Shown here piece after piece: positions 1 through 18,094 of a stretch of 26,881 bases of DNA (positions are counted from its first letter, which is position 1; every line of letters starts with the position of its first letter). This DNA comes from a virus, in IMG/VR virus record IMGVR_UViG_3300006871_000148, positions 1 through 26,881 of that record; one strand, written 5' to 3'. Below the pieces are notes generated by a model. The model saw only the letters and a program-made list of their open reading frames with translations. It searched no databases and was not told the origin of the DNA. The position numbers and the translations under genes are program-made.

Positions 1-1021
1 GAGCATAATCTCGACGTTCGCCCACACGCTGAACGCCGCGTACAGCAACCCGAGCGCGGCAAAGAGAACCCGCGGCCAAAGCCACAATGGCGAGCGTGAC
101 AGGCATGTAGAGAGGAAATGCAAACAGTCCCTCGACCAGAAAGACGACGATCACCAACCGCTCGGCGATCGCGCCGCGCCACAGACAGTAGCCGAAGAAC
201 GTAGCGAGCAACAGCACACCAGGAAGCCCGAGCTCGTAGGCGACCTGAAGGAAATCGTTGTGCGCGTACTCGAAGAAAGGATGATCGAAACGGAACGAGC
301 CAAGCCCGTTCCCCCACAGGCTCAGCCCGTCCCACGCCCGACCCCAGATCTCAAGACGCTCCGACAAGGTGGCAACTTTGAGGGTGAGGAAATGTGCCGA
401 GATACCAATAGCTACGACTGCAACTAACGCGGCCGCAAATTTTGCCCGACGCCACAGGACGAGCCAGCCGGCCGAGACCAGCGCCAAGATCGCCCCGCGC
501 GAGAGTGGGAGGGTCAAGAGAGGAACGCTGGCGCCGATCGCCAAGCTTGATCGACAAAGTGTCGGTCGAGCCCCCACAACCAACCCAACGATCGCCAGCG
601 CCGCCACCTCCGCGGACAAGTTCTTGTTGAAAAACAATCCACTGTAGAAGGTCGACGCCTCCCACTCGACAACCTGAAGCACTTGAAGAACCGTCGTCAA
701 GCTGTTGATACACAACGCTAATCCTGCCGCGACGTAAACCGGGTGCATTGCGCTCGGAGCGAGCAGAAACAACCCTCCAAACAACAAAAAGTGCCAGTAA
801 ATATCAGCGCCGAGCAGCAGGTCGGGCGTCCACCAGAACGAAGCGAGACCCCAAAGCAGGAAGCCCCCGAGACAAAAATGTCCTGGGGTCCAACTAACCC
901 GTTGAATTGTAAACAAAAGAACAGGAACTGCGACGGACAGCAACACCCAACGCGGAGCGTGCGCGCCGTCCGGCCACCAGGGCACGAAAGCGAGGACCAA
1001 GCAAAAGACCAGGAGAGGCAC
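1..1021 (-). CDS. O-antigen ligase/polymerase (Wzy/WaaL-like) membrane protein, C-terminus beyond left edge
   Basis: About 340 residues are visible, mostly hydrophobic helices. Read on the minus strand, hallmarks of the Wzy_C/O-antigen ligase family appear in the right order: GLFFNKN about 115 residues in, LTLPLSRGAIL about 45 later, then WGNGLGSFRFDHPFFEYAHNDF and LQVAYELGLPG, followed by FPLYMP. Family members polymerise or ligate lipid-linked O-antigen or similar glycans at the periplasmic face of the inner membrane. The start is GTG at 1021-1019, overlapping the TAG of the upstream gene (TAGTG), so translation is coupled. It is the last visible gene of the terminase-portal operon. Polymerase and ligase cannot be told apart from sequence alone. 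The fold call is strong; substrate and role are inference. The frame stays open to base 1. Confidence 0.85.
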   Translation of the reverse strand, partial: MPLLVFCLVLAFVPWWPDGAHAPRWVLLSVAVPVLLFTIQRVSWTPGHFCLGGFLLWGLASFWWTPDLLLGADIYWHFLLFGGLFLLAPSAMHPVYVAAGLALCINSLTTVLQVLQVVEWEASTFYSGLFFNKNLSAEVAALAIVGLVVGARPTLCRSSLAIGASVPLLTLPLSRGAILALVSAGWLVLWRRAKFAAALVAVVAIGISAHFLTLKVATLSERLEIWGRAWDGLSLWGNGLGSFRFDHPFFEYAHNDFLQVAYELGLPGVLLLATFFGYCLWRGAIAERLVIVVFLVEGLFAFPLYMPVTLAIVALAAGSLCRARVAVRGVQRVGERRDYA

Positions 1022-1191
1022 TAGACGGCCGTAAGGTCTTTGTTTTCCACGTAAATTGACACGCCGAAGGGCGCCTCCACCCGGCAACCCTTGTCGTCGA
1101 CCACAAGCACACGACCCTCGAAGGCCAGCGTGTTGCCCACGCCGTCCTTAGAGTTGACCCGCACCGTGTCACCGACCTTGAAGACGTTCAC
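1021..1191 (-). CDS. small SH3/KOW-like beta-barrel protein
   Basis: A 56-residue protein of alternating hydrophobic strands beginning NVFKVGDTVRV and containing FEGRVLVVDD, then a strand ending in SIYVENKDL. The pattern (VGD-hydrophobic start, turn, GRV-hydrophobic strand) resembles small SH3-like barrels. The start is GTG at 1191-1189, overlapping the portal stop (GTGA), with AGAGG just upstream. Its own stop overlaps the start of the Wzy-like gene. It sits between portal and membrane protein and is probably co-translated with both. No specific function is recognised; a head-completion or regulatory role would be a guess. Confidence 0.7.
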   Translation of the reverse strand: MNVFKVGDTVRVNSKDGVGNTLAFEGRVLVVDDKGCRVEAPFGVSIYVENKDLTAV

Positions 1192-3392
1192 TGCAACCTC
1201 TGTGGCCGCGGCACGCGGCTAGGATCCTGAAGCTGGTCTTGATGAATTAACCCCGGCGGTCCCTGCACCCGCGGCTGGCCGGGCTGCGCACCCTCGCGCG
1301 GCGTCCCCGCCACGCCAGGGCCGGCGCCCCCAGGCACCCCAGGAGCGCCCTGCTGCGCTTGTACTTGCGCCTGCACCGCAGCCATCTGCTTGCGCTGGCC
1401 CTGCTGGACATGCTTGAAAATGTGGGTCTGGATTTTCTTGGTGTTCTTCCCGCCGCCCGGCTGCGCGCCGAGCTGCTGAAGCAGCATCATGTGCGCCTGC
1501 ATGTGGGCCTGGTCGTCGTCCATCTCGTGCGTCGGGACGTCAAACCCCTCGGCAAGCAACTGGTTCTCCTGCTCGACGGGCACCGGCATCTGGTCCTCGG
1601 GCTTGACGAAGATCATCGGCGCCAGCCGCGGACCAAATGTGTTCTCGACCAGCTGAGTGACCACCGGCACGAGGTTGACCTGATAGCCGTTCAACTGCTG
1701 TGGCGGTATGCCGCGGATGACGTTCATGCCGGCAATCTGCTGCTGAATCTGCTGCGCCGAGCGCGCTTGCTCGACCCCGAACCAACGAAACACGTAGCGG
1801 TGCTCCATCTGGATCGGCGGCACTTCTTCGAGCCCGGCCTGCACGCCCATCTGCCCGAACTGCTTGACGGTGAGCATCTTGTCGCGGTGCTGGTGGTCGA
1901 GCTCCAAGAACAGTGCCAGCATAGGAGTGAGGATGCCTTCCTCGATCACCGTCACGGCGTCGGCAGTGGTGAGAATGTCGACCTGCTGTTCCTGCGCTAC
2001 CTCGGCCTGCGTCGGCTTCTCGCCACCAAGCCGGCCACGGATGCCGGTCGTGATCGCCGCCGGCGATACACTGAGCGTCTGACTGATCTGTTGCACGCAA
2101 TTGGCGACGATCTCCAACCCGTCCTTCCACAGCGCCGGAAACTGAGCGAACTCCGTCGACTTGGGATCGGTCTCCCACACCGCAGCGAGACTGAGTACCA
2201 TGCTCCCCACGCGCGGATTGTTGTTGGGGTCGGTCATCACGATCGGCATCAACGCATATGCAGCGCTGTCCATCGCCTCGTTAACCGCGTCGTTAGCCTG
2301 ATACTGCAAGTCCGCGCAGGGTTTGATTTTGCTGATGCCTTTGAAAGACTCTGACACCTTCTCGACCGGCACCGAGAGCAACGGCACCTTGTCCGACCAG
2401 TTCGGATTGCGCCGGCAGCCGAGCATCCGTTGCTCGCCGCCGAAGAACATCTGGCACAGGCGCCGCTCGCCCTTGGCGATCTTGATGCACGCCCACGTCT
2501 CATAGACTTGAGCATACGCACCAACGCCATAACCCTTCACGCCAGCGGCATCCACCATCTTGCGCGCCGGGTTCTTGTCCTCGGTGCGCGCTTCGGTCTG
2601 AAGTTCTTTGAGAAGGGCAGCGCCCTCGTCCTCGCGGATGGCGCCTTCCTTGACCATCTGGCGAATTTTTGCCTTGCCCCAGCGCCGGATGATGGTCGCC
2701 GACCCGCCCTCATAGACCGCCTCGTCCACGGTGTCAGCCGTCGCCGGCAGCACCAGCACATCGGCGTCATGCAACACCTCGACCTCAGGGTAAGCGTCCT
2801 CAATCTCCTCCTCGTCCATGGTCTCGACTTCGTCAGCCGCCGGATTAGGCACACCTTCGGCAAGCTCGGGCACCTCCATGGTGCGCCAGGTCACGTTGCG
2901 CTTGCGCGAGCACCAGCTGATATAGATGTTGTACTGCCCCTCGATGTCGCCGTTCTTCACCAGCGCGGGCATCACCTTGGTGCGCAACTTGGCCTTGCGA
3001 ACGTAGTGTTCGAGCAACGCGGTCAGCGAGTCAGGCTGCGTGCCATCGGAGGACGTAGTCTCGACGTAGCGCCCCGACTGCGGAAAAATCTGGTTGGTGA
3101 AACGGGTCTTGCGCGCGTTGACAGCGTTGTGGACCGCAGGAACAAAGATTTGAGAGGTGCCATTATAGAACTGCTTGCCGGTGAGCTTGGTATTGTAGAT
3201 GTCCCAGTAGTCGAGCAGGTCGTCCGAGCGCGAAGCCTGATCCTCGTAACCCTTCTCGACTTCCTTGAAAATGTCGAGCATCTGCTTCTTGACGCCGGCC
3301 TTGCGCGACAAGTCGTCCTTGCGCGCCTTAGTGCTCGGCGCCTCAAGGTCGTTGTCCTCGCCTTCCTGGTCGTCAACGGTGTAATCAGCCAC
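1188..3392 (-). CDS. phage portal protein
   Basis: A 734-residue protein directly downstream of the terminase, the usual place for a portal. The size fits the large portals of podovirus-type phages (about 700-770 residues). The N-terminal 40 residues are acidic and charged. The body has helix-rich segments such as DYWDIYNTKLTGKQFYNG and TRFTNQIFPQSGRYVETT typical of portal wing and stem regions. The last ~70 residues are rich in Gln, Gly and Pro (QAQVQAQQGAPG) and look disordered. The portal forms the dodecameric ring at the head vertex through which DNA is pumped. Start ATG overlaps the end of the upstream small gene by 8 bp; the stop overlaps the next gene by 4 bp. Assignment rests on position, length and general sequence character. 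Confidence 0.85.
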   Translation of the reverse strand: MADYTVDDQEGEDNDLEAPSTKARKDDLSRKAGVKKQMLDIFKEVEKGYEDQASRSDDLLDYWDIYNTKLTGKQFYNGTSQIFVPAVHNAVNARKTRFTNQIFPQSGRYVETTSSDGTQPDSLTALLEHYVRKAKLRTKVMPALVKNGDIEGQYNIYISWCSRKRNVTWRTMEVPELAEGVPNPAADEVETMDEEEIEDAYPEVEVLHDADVLVLPATADTVDEAVYEGGSATIIRRWGKAKIRQMVKEGAIREDEGAALLKELQTEARTEDKNPARKMVDAAGVKGYGVGAYAQVYETWACIKIAKGERRLCQMFFGGEQRMLGCRRNPNWSDKVPLLSVPVEKVSESFKGISKIKPCADLQYQANDAVNEAMDSAAYALMPIVMTDPNNNPRVGSMVLSLAAVWETDPKSTEFAQFPALWKDGLEIVANCVQQISQTLSVSPAAITTGIRGRLGGEKPTQAEVAQEQQVDILTTADAVTVIEEGILTPMLALFLELDHQHRDKMLTVKQFGQMGVQAGLEEVPPIQMEHRYVFRWFGVEQARSAQQIQQQIAGMNVIRGIPPQQLNGYQVNLVPVVTQLVENTFGPRLAPMIFVKPEDQMPVPVEQENQLLAEGFDVPTHEMDDDQAHMQAHMMLLQQLGAQPGGGKNTKKIQTHIFKHVQQGQRKQMAAVQAQVQAQQGAPGVPGGAGPGVAGTPREGAQPGQPRVQGPPGLIHQDQLQDPSRVPRPQRLQ

Positions 3393-3579
3393 GACGATCC
3401 TCTACGTGTTCAACCTTCCAACCCTTCGCCCTAAATTGACTAATCACATAGTTTGCTCGTGCGCTGTACCGACACCACTTTGAAAGAATTGGCGCGCAGC
3501 CGGTGATCTCGTCGTTGTACTCAGTAAATCCGGCGACAAAATTAGGCGCAGTCACCTGCCACAACCTGTCGTGGGCCAT
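3385..3579 (-). CDS. small conserved phage protein with VTAPxFxAG motif
   Basis: A 64-residue protein (start MAHDRLWQVTAPNFVAGF) with a central CAPILSKW and a C-terminal KGWKVEHV. Proteins with a VTAPHFxAG...AP...GW signature are common small ORFs in phages, often near packaging genes; none has a function known to me. The ATG at 3579 has GGTGG upstream. An in-frame TTG at 3618, preceded by AGGAGAGG inside the terminase tail, would add 13 residues and couple translation to the terminase. I prefer the ATG because the family motif normally lies close to the N-terminus. The 3' end overlaps the portal start by 8 bp. Confidence 0.75.
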   Translation of the reverse strand: MAHDRLWQVTAPNFVAGFTEYNDEITGCAPILSKWCRYSARANYVISQFRAKGWKVEHVEDRRG

Positions 3580-3610
3580 CGTGGCACCACCAATTTCTTT
3601 CCGCAGTGGG

Positions 3611-5638
3611 CTAGCCAATTTTCCTCTCCTGCACCGTCGACTGCCTGTTGCCTAATGACGAGATGTACCTGCGCCCGTCTGGTGTCGTCGCGTAGTGGAC
3701 AGGCTCGTCATCGCGGATGCTACTCGATTTGAGCAAAGCCGCAAAGGACTCGATGCCTTCCATCAGAGTACGATATGGCCCTTCGACTGCGAACTCGGAC
3801 AGAACGCCGTGCTTGGTCACCTCCTGTGCATACCCTCCGGCGAAAGCGTTCAAAACCCATCTGGCCTGTGTCGACACCCGCAGCGCGGGGAAGCCGCGCG
3901 TCAGCCGTCGAGTGAGCAGTCGTATTTCCTCTCGCCCGATATGCGGCGCCTGGCCCTGACCGACATCGACGGGAATTTTGCGCGCAGCCGCTCGAAGTCC
4001 GACAGTGTCATGCTGACTAAAATGTTGCGGTCCTGCGAAGACACGAACCTTGTGACCACTGGCGGCTGCTCCAGCTGCCTTGCATATTCCTCCAAGCCCT
4101 TGTCCAGGATCGCCTTCTCTGACCCAGTCGTCGATGACATGCAGCCCTCCGTCGATCACCTGAACCAGCGCGGCCGTGGTGCAAAGCGTGGTCGCGTTCA
4201 CTACCAGATAGACGGATTGTCTTTGAACAAGTCCCAGGTCTTCGGTGATGTTCTGCACCGTGAAGCCGTCGTAGATCGGCTGCCCAGGGCGCAGGCGTAG
4301 AGCATAAGCAAGAGCGTTGGGAACGTCGATGCGCCCGGTCGGGAAGCCAAGAAACTGAGCCACTGCCTCGGGACAATCTTTGGCAAAGGTCACCTCTTTT
4401 GCTTTGAAGAATGGCTGAAGGCCACGGATGAAGTCGAGCTTGCCCTTGGGCGCCTTGAGCGGCCGGATGGGGATGGCGTAGGCGCGGCGAAGTTGCTCTT
4501 GTCGAAGAGGTTGCAGAATAAACTCATGTAAACCGTCTTCTTCCACGCCAATAACGATCGGACGGTACAGGTCGTCAACTCTGAACATATCCGCAATGAT
4601 TTCATCCGGCTTCCACATGCCCACGTAGGCATCCCACACGATCAGCCGGTTGTTCAGCCACGACCAGATAGCAATGCCCGTACTGGCAGAAGTGGACTTC
4701 ACAGTGCGTGCCGGGTCGTACATCGCATAGACGGCCTGCCACGTACGCACCATCGGCTCGACCCGCATCAGGTCGACCGTGAACGGCTTCTGGCTCATGT
4801 CCTCGGCTTTGCATAGATATTCCTGGGCAAAATTGTTGTGCAAACCAAGACGCGCGTACTCTGCCTCTTTTGCCGTTATCCAAGCAAGCGAGAACCGATC
4901 AGGCCATGTTGCCTGAAGCTCTCCGGTTTCAGCATTTATGCTGCGGATCGGATAGGTTCGGCTCTCCCAATCCTTCTCGCCTTCGGGCGTGACAACTGCT
5001 TCAAGCTGCTCGATCACTGCCTGCGGTGAAAGCGGAGTGCCGTTAATACGGACAAGCGCGTTGGGATCGAGCGCCGGCATCACCACCGACATAAGCCAGC
5101 GCATACACTTCTCGATCGCCTCGGGCGTCGCTACCGACTCCTCGTTCTCGATGTCGTCGCCGAACGCAAGGTCGGGACGCCAGTCCAAATGCTTCGAGCC
5201 ACGCAACGACTGACCACGCCCAAAAGCTTGAATGGCCACGCCGTTCGCGAGCACAATCCGACCTTCCGACCATGTGTCTCCGACGAGATTTCCGAACAGG
5301 TCTTCGAGGTAGGCGTTCGTATCAAATTCGTTTTTGATTGCGCGCAGGCGCTCTACCGCGCGCTCGTACGTCTCTCCCAGCACGATGCAATTCTTGAACT
5401 GCCGCAGGCACGCCCGGATGATGATCGCCTCCTCGGCGCGCGTGCTCTTGGCAGCGCCGCGGAAGGCTTTTATGAGCACCTTTGGTGCGTCACTATGCCA
5501 CAGGTCGATGATCTCGTTGTGAAAATCGGGGGTGGTGTTGGGATGGCGATGACCAAAGAGAACGGCGTGCGCGAGCCGCGGGTTGCGGCCGAGCTTCACG
5601 ATCAGCTCGCTGCGGGGGTCGAGAGGGGCGTCGGTCAT
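3611..5638 (-). CDS. terL: terminase large subunit with C-terminal extension
   Basis: A 675-residue packaging motor. The ATPase domain shows a Walker A-like FRGAAKST (residues 59-66) and Walker B DLAFGDDIEN (156-165). A nuclease-like domain follows, with YAMYDPART (Asp308), VIGVEEDGL (362-370) and IDVPNALAYAL (Asp438), fitting the RNase H-fold terminase nuclease. Terminases usually end near residue 450-550; here about 215 more residues follow (see findings). The protein cuts concatemeric DNA and drives it through the portal. Start ATG 5638 has no clear Shine-Dalgarno; the KTSC gene ends 18 bp upstream, so coupling is likely. A small terminase subunit is not obvious next to it. Confidence 0.93.
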   Translation of the reverse strand: MTDAPLDPRSELIVKLGRNPRLAHAVLFGHRHPNTTPDFHNEIIDLWHSDAPKVLIKAFRGAAKSTRAEEAIIIRACLRQFKNCIVLGETYERAVERLRAIKNEFDTNAYLEDLFGNLVGDTWSEGRIVLANGVAIQAFGRGQSLRGSKHLDWRPDLAFGDDIENEESVATPEAIEKCMRWLMSVVMPALDPNALVRINGTPLSPQAVIEQLEAVVTPEGEKDWESRTYPIRSINAETGELQATWPDRFSLAWITAKEAEYARLGLHNNFAQEYLCKAEDMSQKPFTVDLMRVEPMVRTWQAVYAMYDPARTVKSTSASTGIAIWSWLNNRLIVWDAYVGMWKPDEIIADMFRVDDLYRPIVIGVEEDGLHEFILQPLRQEQLRRAYAIPIRPLKAPKGKLDFIRGLQPFFKAKEVTFAKDCPEAVAQFLGFPTGRIDVPNALAYALRLRPGQPIYDGFTVQNITEDLGLVQRQSVYLVVNATTLCTTAALVQVIDGGLHVIDDWVREGDPGQGLGGICKAAGAAASGHKVRVFAGPQHFSQHDTVGLRAAARKIPVDVGQGQAPHIGREEIRLLTRRLTRGFPALRVSTQARWVLNAFAGGYAQEVTKHGVLSEFAVEGPYRTLMEGIESFAALLKSSSIRDDEPVHYATTPDGRRYISSLGNRQSTVQERKIG

Positions 5639-5656: not shown

Positions 5657-5854
5657 CTACGTCTCGTCGTACACGCCCTTAACGGCGCTGTTGAAATACT
5701 GGCCAGGGGAGGAAGCGGAAGTGAGGCCGTCAGCGATCTGCTGAGGAACGTCGGCGTAGCGGTAAGTCCGGCCCGAGCGAAACAAGATGATCAGGATCTG
5801 GCGTTCCGCGTCATAGTCGCAGCCGGCCAGGTTGGAACTGGAGAGGGGGGTCAT
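5657..5854 (-). CDS. KTSC-domain protein
   Basis: A 65-residue protein matching the short KTSC domain: an SSNL-type beginning, a YD-x6-L hydrophobic strand (DYDAERQILIILF), then G-x-TYRYADVPQQI and SASSPGQYFNSAVKGVY at the end. In this family the strand, Y-x-Y-x-x-VP and SxGxYFN blocks are the landmarks. KTSC domains occur alone in phages and fused to lysyl-tRNA synthetases; their function is not established. The start ATG lies 13 bp after the stop of the secreted-protein gene. Longer in-frame starts upstream would overlap that gene and add non-family sequence, so I rejected them. Confidence 0.82.
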   Translation of the reverse strand: MTPLSSSNLAGCDYDAERQILIILFRSGRTYRYADVPQQIADGLTSASSPGQYFNSAVKGVYDET

Positions 5855-5867
5855 CAGCTTCGCTGTT

Positions 5868-6131
5868 TCAGCGTTTGAAGGGAACGACGTCCGCGGCGAA
5901 CTGGTCGGAGGTGTTGACCACTGCGAGGCGCTGTTTCTTGGCCTTGCGGATTTTGGTCTTCCCGGTGCGCAGAGGTGCCTTGTCGCACCAAACAACAGTC
6001 TTGCCCGCCTGATTGTCGATGTGGAGATTTCCCCACCCTGGTGCGCAGGTGATCGTGTTGCGAGGGGCGGCCACGGAAGGGGTGGTGACGAGCACGAGGA
6101 GTGCGGCAGCCAGCAAGAGGGCTTTCTTCAT
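5868..6131 (-). CDS. small secreted protein with signal peptide
   Basis: An 87-residue protein with a textbook signal peptide (MKKALLLAAALLVLVTTPSVAA, split here as MKKALLLAAALLVLV then TTPSVAA), probably cleaved after VAA near residue 22. The mature part has two cysteines (TITCAPGWGN and VVWCDKAP), which could form one disulfide in the periplasm, and a basic stretch KTKIRKAKKQR. Start ATG overlaps the stop of the upstream small gene (ATGA), with GAGG ahead. I do not recognise a family. It belongs to the front of the packaging operon; an envelope or periplasmic role is inferred only from the signal peptide. Confidence 0.75.
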   Translation of the reverse strand: MKKALLLAAALLVLVTTPSVAAPRNTITCAPGWGNLHIDNQAGKTVVWCDKAPLRTGKTKIRKAKKQRLAVVNTSDQFAADVVPFKR

Positions 6132-6280
6132 TTCAAATCCTCGGTTTGAAGGGGCGCCATCGCGTGCTTGGTGTGCGCGGCGTTTAGGGCGGCTTGGGAA
6201 AACCGCAGGGCATCTTCGGATCGCTCGGCGTCCGTGGCCTTCTTCAGCAATGCATTGATGGTGTTTTGCAGGTCGTCCAT
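6128..6280 (-). CDS. small conserved phage protein (SEDALRFSQAALN motif)
   Basis: A 50-residue helical protein, MDDLQNTINALLKKA at the start and SEDALRFSQAALNAAH in the middle. Short proteins with a DA-x-x-FSQAALN-A core are frequent in tailed phages of proteobacteria and have no assigned function. The ATG is preceded by GGAGGT 9-10 bases upstream, the strongest ribosome site of this operon, and it is the first gene of the leftward arm. Its stop overlaps the start of the secreted-protein gene (ATGA). The two-helix pattern suggests a small dimer or a coat/head cofactor, but that is a guess. Confidence 0.75.
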   Translation of the reverse strand: MDDLQNTINALLKKATDAERSEDALRFSQAALNAAHTKHAMAPLQTEDLK

Positions 6281-6303
6281 CGGGTTTTACCTCCGGATGT
6301 GGG

Positions 6304-6342
6304 TTGCGTGTGGAGCGTGAGGTATTGCGTGTGAGGTGTCAA
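6304..6342 (-). promoter_or_regulatory. possible late promoter/activator site with 9-bp direct repeats
   Basis: On the minus strand a perfect TTGACA (6342-6337) lies 57 bases before the first late ATG. It is followed by two copies of CACACGCAA (6333-6325 and 6312-6304) exactly 21 bp apart, about two helical turns. No good -10 hexamer sits 16-18 bases after the TTGACA. The repeats could therefore be an activator site, or the promoter may need a phage factor. The rightward promoter shares CCTTGACACC and ACACGC. Weak evidence. Confidence 0.35.
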
Positions 6343-6640
6343 GGGCTTTGGGGGTAGCTTATTATGCGGAGGAAAATCCTATTTTATGCTGCTGTCTGCG
6401 AATGAAGTCATAAAAATTAAAATCTCCCGCCCCCCGGCAAAGCAAATCCCGAGTTGTTCGAGGCACAAAGCAAATAAGATCAATGGCTTAGCGCCAGCGG
6501 CTCGCCTGGTACACGAAGCTCGCGGCCTATTGTACAGCAAGTTACATGTGAGTAGAACGGAATTGCTCAATGATTTCAACGCTGCGTATGTATTTTGTTG
6601 GCCTGCATATTTATTCTGCATGGACCAGGTAGGAGAAAAA

Positions 6641-6661
6641 AGAACATTCCGTGTTTGTTCT
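6641..6661. promoter_or_regulatory. 21-bp dyad, candidate operator
   Basis: Inverted repeat with 6-bp arms AGAACA and TGTTCT around a 9-base centre. It has the size of a dimeric HTH repressor site. It superficially recalls LexA sites (GAAC...GTTC), but the spacing fits neither the GAAC-N4-GTTC form nor the alphaproteobacterial GTTC-N7-GTTC form. It lies in the divergent control region. Confidence 0.3.
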
Positions 6662-6781
6662 CTTAATTCGATACATTCAAAAAACGCTGTAACCTATTGA
6701 TGTTGTTCACTGTCCAGGGTAGTAGTAGTTAAGTAGTTACTATATTTGATGATTTTTCTTCCTGGGCCAACTCGCGTACAT

Positions 6782-6802
6782 TTATGCTCATATTGAGCAT
6801 AA
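6782..6802. promoter_or_regulatory. 21-bp perfect dyad, candidate operator
   Basis: Perfect inverted repeat with 9-bp arms, TTATGCTCA and TGAGCATAA, around TAT. Neither side has a T-run suited to termination, so an operator for one of the two downstream HTH proteins is the likelier reading. It lies about 150 bp upstream of the rightward -35 box. The symmetry is seen directly; the binding protein is inferred. Confidence 0.45.
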
Positions 6803-6829
6803 CTATTTTCATAGGTCAGAATGCAAAAA

Positions 6830-6862
6830 CAAATAAAAAAATTTAGGCTACTAGTGTAGCCT
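6830..6862 (-). terminator. rho-independent terminator facing left
   Basis: Hairpin with perfect 7-bp stem AGGCTAC/GTAGCCT (6845-6851 and 6856-6862) and a TAGT loop. On the minus strand it is followed by AAATTTTTTTATTTG, giving a T-run for leftward transcripts. No minus-strand gene ends here. It would stop antisense or leaky transcripts coming from the early promoter side, or end a small RNA. Confidence 0.5.
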
Positions 6863-6954
6863 TTGAAACCATTACACAATCCGCTTTTTCTGTCTAAACT
6901 TGTGACATTCCTACCACACACAAAATGTACCCACATGAGCCCCATAAGTAGACC

Positions 6955-6984
6955 TTGACACCACGCCCACACGCGCATTATATA
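6955..6984 (+). promoter_or_regulatory. sigma70-like promoter of the rightward early operon
   Basis: A consensus -35 box TTGACA at 6955-6960. It is followed after 18 bases by TATATA (6979-6984), or after 17 by TTATAT. Transcription would start near 6990, just ahead of the first HTH reading frame. Orientation and position fit the early arm promoter. Confidence 0.6.
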
Positions 6985-7085
6985 CATTGCCGAATTCACG
7001 CTAGGCAAAAGGCCCCAAAACGACGCCAGCTCGCTTCGGTCTTCGCGACGGACCATCGGCTGCCGACTTAAAGGACGCGCGCCGC

Positions 7086-7235
7086 GTGCTTAAACTAACG
7101 CAAGAGCAAAAGGCCGACTATTTCAGCGTTTCCGTGAAAACATACCGCAAATGGGAAAGTGGTAATAGTGTACACGGTACGCCGCACCGGATCGCCAGCG
7201 CGCTCTTAACCCTCCTACTGCGAGGCAGACCATGA
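7086..7235 (+). CDS. small XRE-type helix-turn-helix protein, start uncertain
   Basis: The frame encodes LKLTQEQKADYFSVSVKTYR and then KWESGNS, a classic XRE helix-turn-helix (TQEQ-x-A, then VS-x-x-T-x-x-KWE-x-G). Taking the only usual start in frame, GTG at 7086, gives 49 residues but cuts off most of helix 1, which continues upstream as AADLKDARRVL in open frame back to a TAG at 7002. The upstream stretch has no ATG, GTG or TTG. The stop overlaps the ATG of the next gene (ATGA). It is the first gene after the early promoter and probably acts as a repressor or Cro-like regulator. A rare start such as ACG (7020 or 7023) or a mutated start are alternatives. Confidence 0.6.
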   Translation: MLKLTQEQKADYFSVSVKTYRKWESGNSVHGTPHRIASALLTLLLRGRP

Positions 7236-17511: not shown

Positions 17512-17708
17512 GCGACGAACCGTGCCCCGAGAAGAAAGGCCACTGTTGCGAAGGCTGCGCGTTCTTTTGTGGCGCCATCTTGGTTGCATTCGTGCTAGGA
17601 ATTATTGGTTTTATCACTGTCGACGCTTGGCAAAAGTGGGGGATTCGCAACGGTTTGGCCGCTTACAACCCAACGACCGGCTACCTCGAATGGAAAGATA
17701 AAAAATAA
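17508..17708 (+). CDS. cysteine-rich single-pass membrane protein
   Basis: A 66-residue protein. The N-terminus holds five cysteines in about 17 residues (CPEKKGHCCEGCAFFC). One transmembrane helix, AILVAFVLGIIGFITV, and a polar C-terminus follow. GTG start overlaps the helicase stop (GTGA) and its TAA overlaps the next ATG (TAATG). The cysteines could bind metal or be palmitoylation/disulfide sites; function unknown. Confidence 0.6.
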   Translation: MSDEPCPEKKGHCCEGCAFFCGAILVAFVLGIIGFITVDAWQKWGIRNGLAAYNPTTGYLEWKDKK

Positions 17709-18094
17709 TGCCAACGACCGCTGACTACATCGGCCAGTACATCAAGCTGCGCAACACGGTTGCGGTGCTCACGGCCGAGCACGAGGAGCGAGTCAGGCCG
17801 TACACCGAGGCTATGCAGGCTTTGGAAGGTATGGTGACCGAGGAGATCAACCGCCTCGGTGGCGAGAGCATCAAGACGGAACAGGGTACTGCGTATCGGA
17901 CAACCGTTCTCGCTACCAAGGTGGCTGACCGCGAGCTGTTCATGGACTTCGTCTTTGACGGGCGCCGCGAAGGGTTCCTGACGTCGGCCGTCGCCAAGGA
18001 CGCCGTCAAGGAGTACATGGACGACCACGCGGGCGCAGTGCCGCCCGGCATCGACGTGACCCTCATTCACAAGACTAACTTCAGGAAAGCGTGA
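17708..18094 (+). CDS. conserved phage protein of unknown function (Gam-like helical, VADRELFMDFV motif)
   Basis: A 128-residue protein: a long N-terminal helix (YIKLRNTVAVLTAEHEERV), then GGESIKTEQGTAYRTTVL, VADRELFMDFVF and a PPGIDVTLIHKTNFRK end. The order helix, IKT-x-x-GTAY, VADR, PPG...NFR is familiar from many phage replication modules, next to polymerases and primases, but I know no proven function. The architecture loosely recalls Gam-type proteins. Start overlaps the preceding stop (TAATG). Confidence 0.72.
   Translation: MPTTADYIGQYIKLRNTVAVLTAEHEERVRPYTEAMQALEGMVTEEINRLGGESIKTEQGTAYRTTVLATKVADRELFMDFVFDGRREGFLTSAVAKDAVKEYMDDHAGAVPPGIDVTLIHKTNFRKA

Follow-up and report, generated by a model that had tools for sequence, protein, structure and literature searches.

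O-antigen ligases and polymerases of the WaaL/Wzy type work at the periplasmic face, where undecaprenyl diphosphate supplies their glycan. The O-antigen polymerase genes known from phages are prophage conversion genes, and D3 is a seroconverting phage. In the Variovorax temperate phage VarioGold, VG_p25 codes for a Wzy_C protein with ten transmembrane (TM) segments; its gene adjoins the lysis genes and runs opposite to the late genes, and activity in lysogeny has been proposed (PMC9658991). For the O-antigen-modifying genes of lytic phages, among them the gnarl genes of coliphages, a role in receptor masking has been proposed, which stops virions from binding the debris of lysed cells (PMC12373910).

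Here, we analysed a window of 26,881 nucleotides, which is an entire IMG/VR contig (IMGVR_UViG_3300006871_000148). A first-pass annotation had placed an O-antigen-ligase-like gene in the late operon of this phage. We confirm this observation and propose, with moderate confidence, that the gene serves the remodelling of host envelope glycans late in infection. No description of such a late-operon gene was found in searches of an open-access library, which most subscription journals fall outside.

The ligase-like gene and its operon

The motifs FFNKN, LSRGAI, GLGSF and HNDF, from which the gene had been recognised by eye, are all present in the minus-strand open reading frame (ORF) at the edge of the window (Table 1). 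The truncated protein matches Wzy_C (PF04932) with an E value of 2e-6 and 28.1 bits, which just misses the Pfam cut-off of 31.7, and the protein together with its frame neighbours scores 32.1 bits, above this cut-off, so that the HMM search agrees with the family initially assigned. A Wzy_C match at E<=0.01 was also obtained for 13 of 17 homologues. The protein had no match in PHROGs or in NCBIfam, and the sequence here does not separate a ligase from a polymerase (Wzy). The same phage is represented by a further assembly (G001, 46,974 bases), which includes the window at 100% identity and whose contig ends share a 26-base overlap, consistent with a circular reading of 46.9 kb. When read across this overlap, the gene codes for a full-length protein of 363 aa, the last 23 of which are removed by the window edge; the extension of the gene beyond the contig, advised at first pass, is thereby supplied. 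Position 1 of the window and position 1 of G001 are assembly breaks at most 5 bases apart, both inside the ligase-like gene, and might be due to differences between strains or mark a true end of the genome.

Table 1. Features of the late operon around the ligase-like gene, in window coordinates.
Feature	Position	Strand	Remarks
Wzy_C / O-antigen-ligase-fold membrane protein	2..1021	minus	3' end lost at window edge; 340/363 aa present
H254-N255-D256 codons, start of the WaaL-type signature (residues 254-268)	254..262	minus	His and Asp fully conserved among the 17 homologues
56-aa ORF between portal and ligase, overlapping both	1021..1191	minus	no significant family; weak S1, E 0.022
Portal protein, 734 aa	1188..3392	minus	phrog_1216, E 3.5e-7; orthologues 57-69% identical
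77-aa ORF overlapping terminase and portal	3385..3618	minus	no family match
Terminase large subunit, 675 aa	3611..5638	minus	phrog_38, E 3.9e-56; orthologues 66-71% identical

On the minus strand, the genes follow one another in the order terminase, 77-aa ORF, portal, 56-aa ORF and ligase. The portal gene is joined to the 56-aa ORF by a 4-nt overlap (GTGA) and the latter to the ligase-like gene by a 1-nt overlap (TAGTG), with the ligase start at 1021. The chain of unbroken joins between terminase, portal and ligase, ending in TAGTG, stands as first described, with the refinement that the immediate upstream gene is the 56-aa ORF and not the portal gene. The placement in the late operon is likewise borne out by the shared strand, the overlapping start and stop codons and the PHROGs matches of terminase and portal. 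In G001, the ligase-like gene is followed by genes for a small signal-peptide-like protein and a 1,154-aa fibre-like protein and by small ORFs, and further on by an ORF whose product has a peptidoglycan-binding domain and by genes for a scaffold-like protein, the major head protein and a tail-collar fibre; the neighbouring fibres were annotated through Collar, tail fibre PHROGs and Gly_rich_2. Unlike the late genes, those for replication (DNA polymerase A, SNF2-type helicase, DUF927/primase and nuclease) are encoded on the opposite strand. The early arm also contains a plus-strand ORF (17708-18094) that matches the minor head protein phrog_13900 (E 3.3e-18) and lies apart from the other structural genes. 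On the minus strand, an 87-aa ORF with a signal-peptide-like start (5868-6131) overlaps a KTSC-domain ORF (5657-5995) in a different frame.

Fold, active site and selection

A structure model built from 17 homologues reached a mean pLDDT of 83; an earlier model from 4 sequences, with a pLDDT of 45, was set aside and not used. The model aligns with WaaL (7tpg) with a Z score of 21.5 over 307 residues at 3.7 A, and the predicted fold is that of an O-antigen ligase, the outcome for which structure prediction had been recommended at first pass. WaaL 7tpg is also the best solved match of the model in Foldseek (E 7.8e-6) and the single credible solved relative of the profile of the 17 homologues (E 1.5e-8). 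An identity as a SEDS protein (RodA/FtsW) was rejected, with Z scores of at most 10.7 against 21.5 for WaaL, and a fold search of BFVD with the model gave no clear viral match.

The 17 homologues, which range down to 19% identity with the window protein, all carry W25, R222, H254, D256 and the FPLxP block, and most of them retain R175 of the SRG motif. The WaaL signature H[NSQ]X9GXX[GTY] is present in the window protein as HNDFLQVAYELGLPG; the strict signature is found in 11 of the 17 homologues and its His in all of them (0.7% of shuffles carry the signature). The dN/dS values of the ligase-like gene, 0.11-0.45 in four pairs, compare with 0.07 and 0.24 for the portal gene in two of those pairs and show purifying selection. 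Because the deep branches of the tree of the 17 homologues do not resolve, one acquisition followed by later moves is not told apart from several acquisitions.

Position in related phages

Conservation of the site in related phages, which the first-pass annotation had asked about, was found in six other phages, with a ligase orthologue behind the portal gene either directly or after one short ORF. The gene lies directly behind portal in G002, G004 and G005, with 36-50% identity and overlaps of 1 or 4 nt, and in L109, with an overlap of 17 nt; in L031 and L107 one short ORF intervenes. This inserted ORF (L031:1695-2165 and L107:5508-5993) is HNH-endonuclease-like as recognised by eye, without a family search. 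Elsewhere, the ligase gene comes after a fibre-like gene and ahead of an endolysin-like gene (L035 and L036) or after a tail-collar-type fibre gene with a 4-nt overlap (L108, L110 and L111, which have tail and other late proteins in common with the window phage). Wzy_C genes are also located between major head and tail genes in G003 and amid structural, fibre or lysis genes in L112, L113 and L116, four contigs for which relatedness to the window phage was not detected in the stretches compared. L112, a 63-kb phage contig, carries two different Wzy_C copies (2350-3570 and 5890-7116), separated by about 2.3 kb in a region of putative fibre genes. In most loci, the ligase gene overlaps the upstream gene by 1 to 4 nt. 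To call the gene locked into the packaging operon is too strong, because relatives also carry it at other places beside fibre genes. Where present, the ligase gene adjoins portal, fibre or lysis genes, and its constant association is with fibre and lysis genes rather than with packaging.

A search of 20 contigs from related phages with the A3 profile detected no copy of the ligase gene in 18, several of which exceed 40 kb, and the gene is therefore optional and not essential to this phage type. The A3 profile served to recheck negatives, since PF04932 alone had overlooked G024, which is a true homologue. The portal-scaffold intervals examined in relatives without the ligase contain no ORF predicted to have more than three TM segments, and a substitute glycan enzyme in these phages was rejected. 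At the sensitivity used, tblastn searches returned no match among cultured phages or plasmids. With regard to a cellular origin, scans of 84,980 species genomes revealed no relative, either with the major capsid protein or with the ligase alignment, the latter using short patterns and one confirming sequence, by which distant relatives may be missed.

Proposed function and described systems

In the reading that we favour, a polytopic inner-membrane glycan transferase with the WaaL/Wzy_C fold would be translated from the late structural operon and, in conjunction with the receptor-binding fibre and lysis genes, remodel the host envelope glycan for receptor masking or superinfection exclusion. 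At the periplasmic face, the enzyme would most likely pick up host surface glycan linked to undecaprenyl diphosphate and join it to a different acceptor or through a different linkage. Newly exported envelope glycan could in this way escape recognition by the phage's own fibres; progeny would not stay bound to the dying cell or to its debris, and superinfection would be blocked. No sugar-synthesis enzyme was found among the phage proteins covered by a non-exhaustive scan, and the donor would therefore be that of the host. That the fibres bind the modified glycan is suggested by the gene's place in the late operon and its linkage to fibre genes. Several points weigh against this proposal: LPS remodelling late in infection reaches newly made LPS only, the genes by which lytic phages exclude superinfection are usually early, many relatives are without the gene, and the family profile matches that of D3 Wzy-beta only around the HN/His motif, with a probability of 4%.

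One might instead regard the gene as an ordinary accessory (moron) glycan polymerase or ligase, present in the late region by chance and used with its own promoter for serotype conversion by a temperate phage, and phage Wzy_C genes of this kind are known from D3 and VarioGold (PMC9658991). We consider this unlikely because the gene lies on the same strand as the late genes, overlaps its upstream gene as described above and is accompanied by no integrase or resolvase match above the cut-off in 12 contigs. In line with the latter result, a role in lysogenic conversion is not indicated, and the uncultured phage family carrying the gene is apparently virulent. A promoter search of the region also argues against an accessory gene of this type, as its one promoter-like match is on the opposite strand and does not exceed what shuffles give.

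A PglL/PilO-like oligosaccharyltransferase would move the host's lipid-linked glycan onto phage fibre and small proteins that it meets in the periplasm. PglL, PilO and TfpO enzymes belong to the Wzy_C family, and neighbours of the ligase gene start in a signal-peptide-like manner (C001_10, C001_11, G004_25-27, G005_48/49/51/52, G003_16 and proteins in L035 and L113), a call based on a simple heuristic that 1.2% of shuffled proteins pass. The idea is weakened because signal-like fibres also occur in L052, L057, L065 and L050, where the ligase was not found. Moreover, the length of 320-430 aa is WaaL-like, and no PglL-specific Pfam or NCBIfam match beyond Wzy_C was obtained, in searches of low sensitivity for such divergent proteins. 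We hold this explanation to be decidedly unlikely, and less likely again its narrower form, in which, late in infection, a WaaL-fold oligosaccharyltransferase would glycosylate exported fibre proteins of the phage itself that bear signal peptides. Sec-signal-peptide-like starts, such as MKRLLALFLLLASPAQAQ, are seen in fibre-like and small late proteins of G001 (L017:3056-6520 minus, C001_11 and C001_24), G004 and G005 and also of L031, L035, L036, L045, L050, L052, L057 and L065; such starts are unusual in proteins of virions that assemble in the cytoplasm.

It is very improbable that the enzyme acts as a lysis helper, which would use up undecaprenyl-diphosphate-linked glycan or perturb the lipid carrier pool and so weaken wall synthesis at lysis. 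The ligase gene is indeed close to endolysin and holin-like genes in several loci, but the protein retains the catalytic residues of a productive transferase, known ligases release the carrier instead of trapping it, and the nearest neighbours in the window phage are portal and fibre genes. An assembly artefact, or a join between host DNA and phage sequence, was a possibility raised at first pass and by the gene's location at the extreme edge of the window contig. It has a negligible chance of being true and is rejected, given the identical gene in the circular contig G001 and the orthologues that occupy this site in several further contigs of phages.

With late host-glycan remodelling as the favoured role, the locus represents a WaaL-fold enzyme that selection maintains in a late operon, in phages showing no sign of lysogeny. 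If the link to the fibres is functional, it can be tested whether virulent phages edit the host surface glycan late so that their progeny escape.

With WaaL (7tpg/7tpj), the protein shares the predicted fold over the aligned residues, the Wzy_C domain and the active-site His and Arg motifs, whereas identity is only about 16% and the present gene is phage-borne and part of a structural operon. Like Pseudomonas phage D3 Wzy-beta, it is a phage-borne candidate enzyme of the lipid-linked O-antigen pathway. The contrast with D3 drawn at first pass holds for strand and operon, as D3 wzy-beta runs opposite to the tail and lysis genes and the present gene lies in the same direction as the late genes, joined to them by overlapping start and stop codons. 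It does not hold for the neighbourhood, because in the D3 genome the cassette too is located between tail fibre and endolysin. D3 is moreover temperate, with an integrase further on, and has iap and oac beside wzy (cassette iap/oac/wzy). VarioGold VG_p25 has in common with the present gene the Wzy_C domain and the place beside lysis genes, and differs in its opposite strand and temperate phage. The gnarl genes share the phage modification of O-antigen and the proposed receptor masking, but code for small effectors and not for WaaL-fold enzymes. Taken together, the present family is set apart from D3 and VarioGold by its coupling to the late operon, its linkage to fibre genes and the fact that no lysogeny genes were found, and the ligase-like gene adds a late, fibre-linked form to the O-antigen enzymes known from phages.
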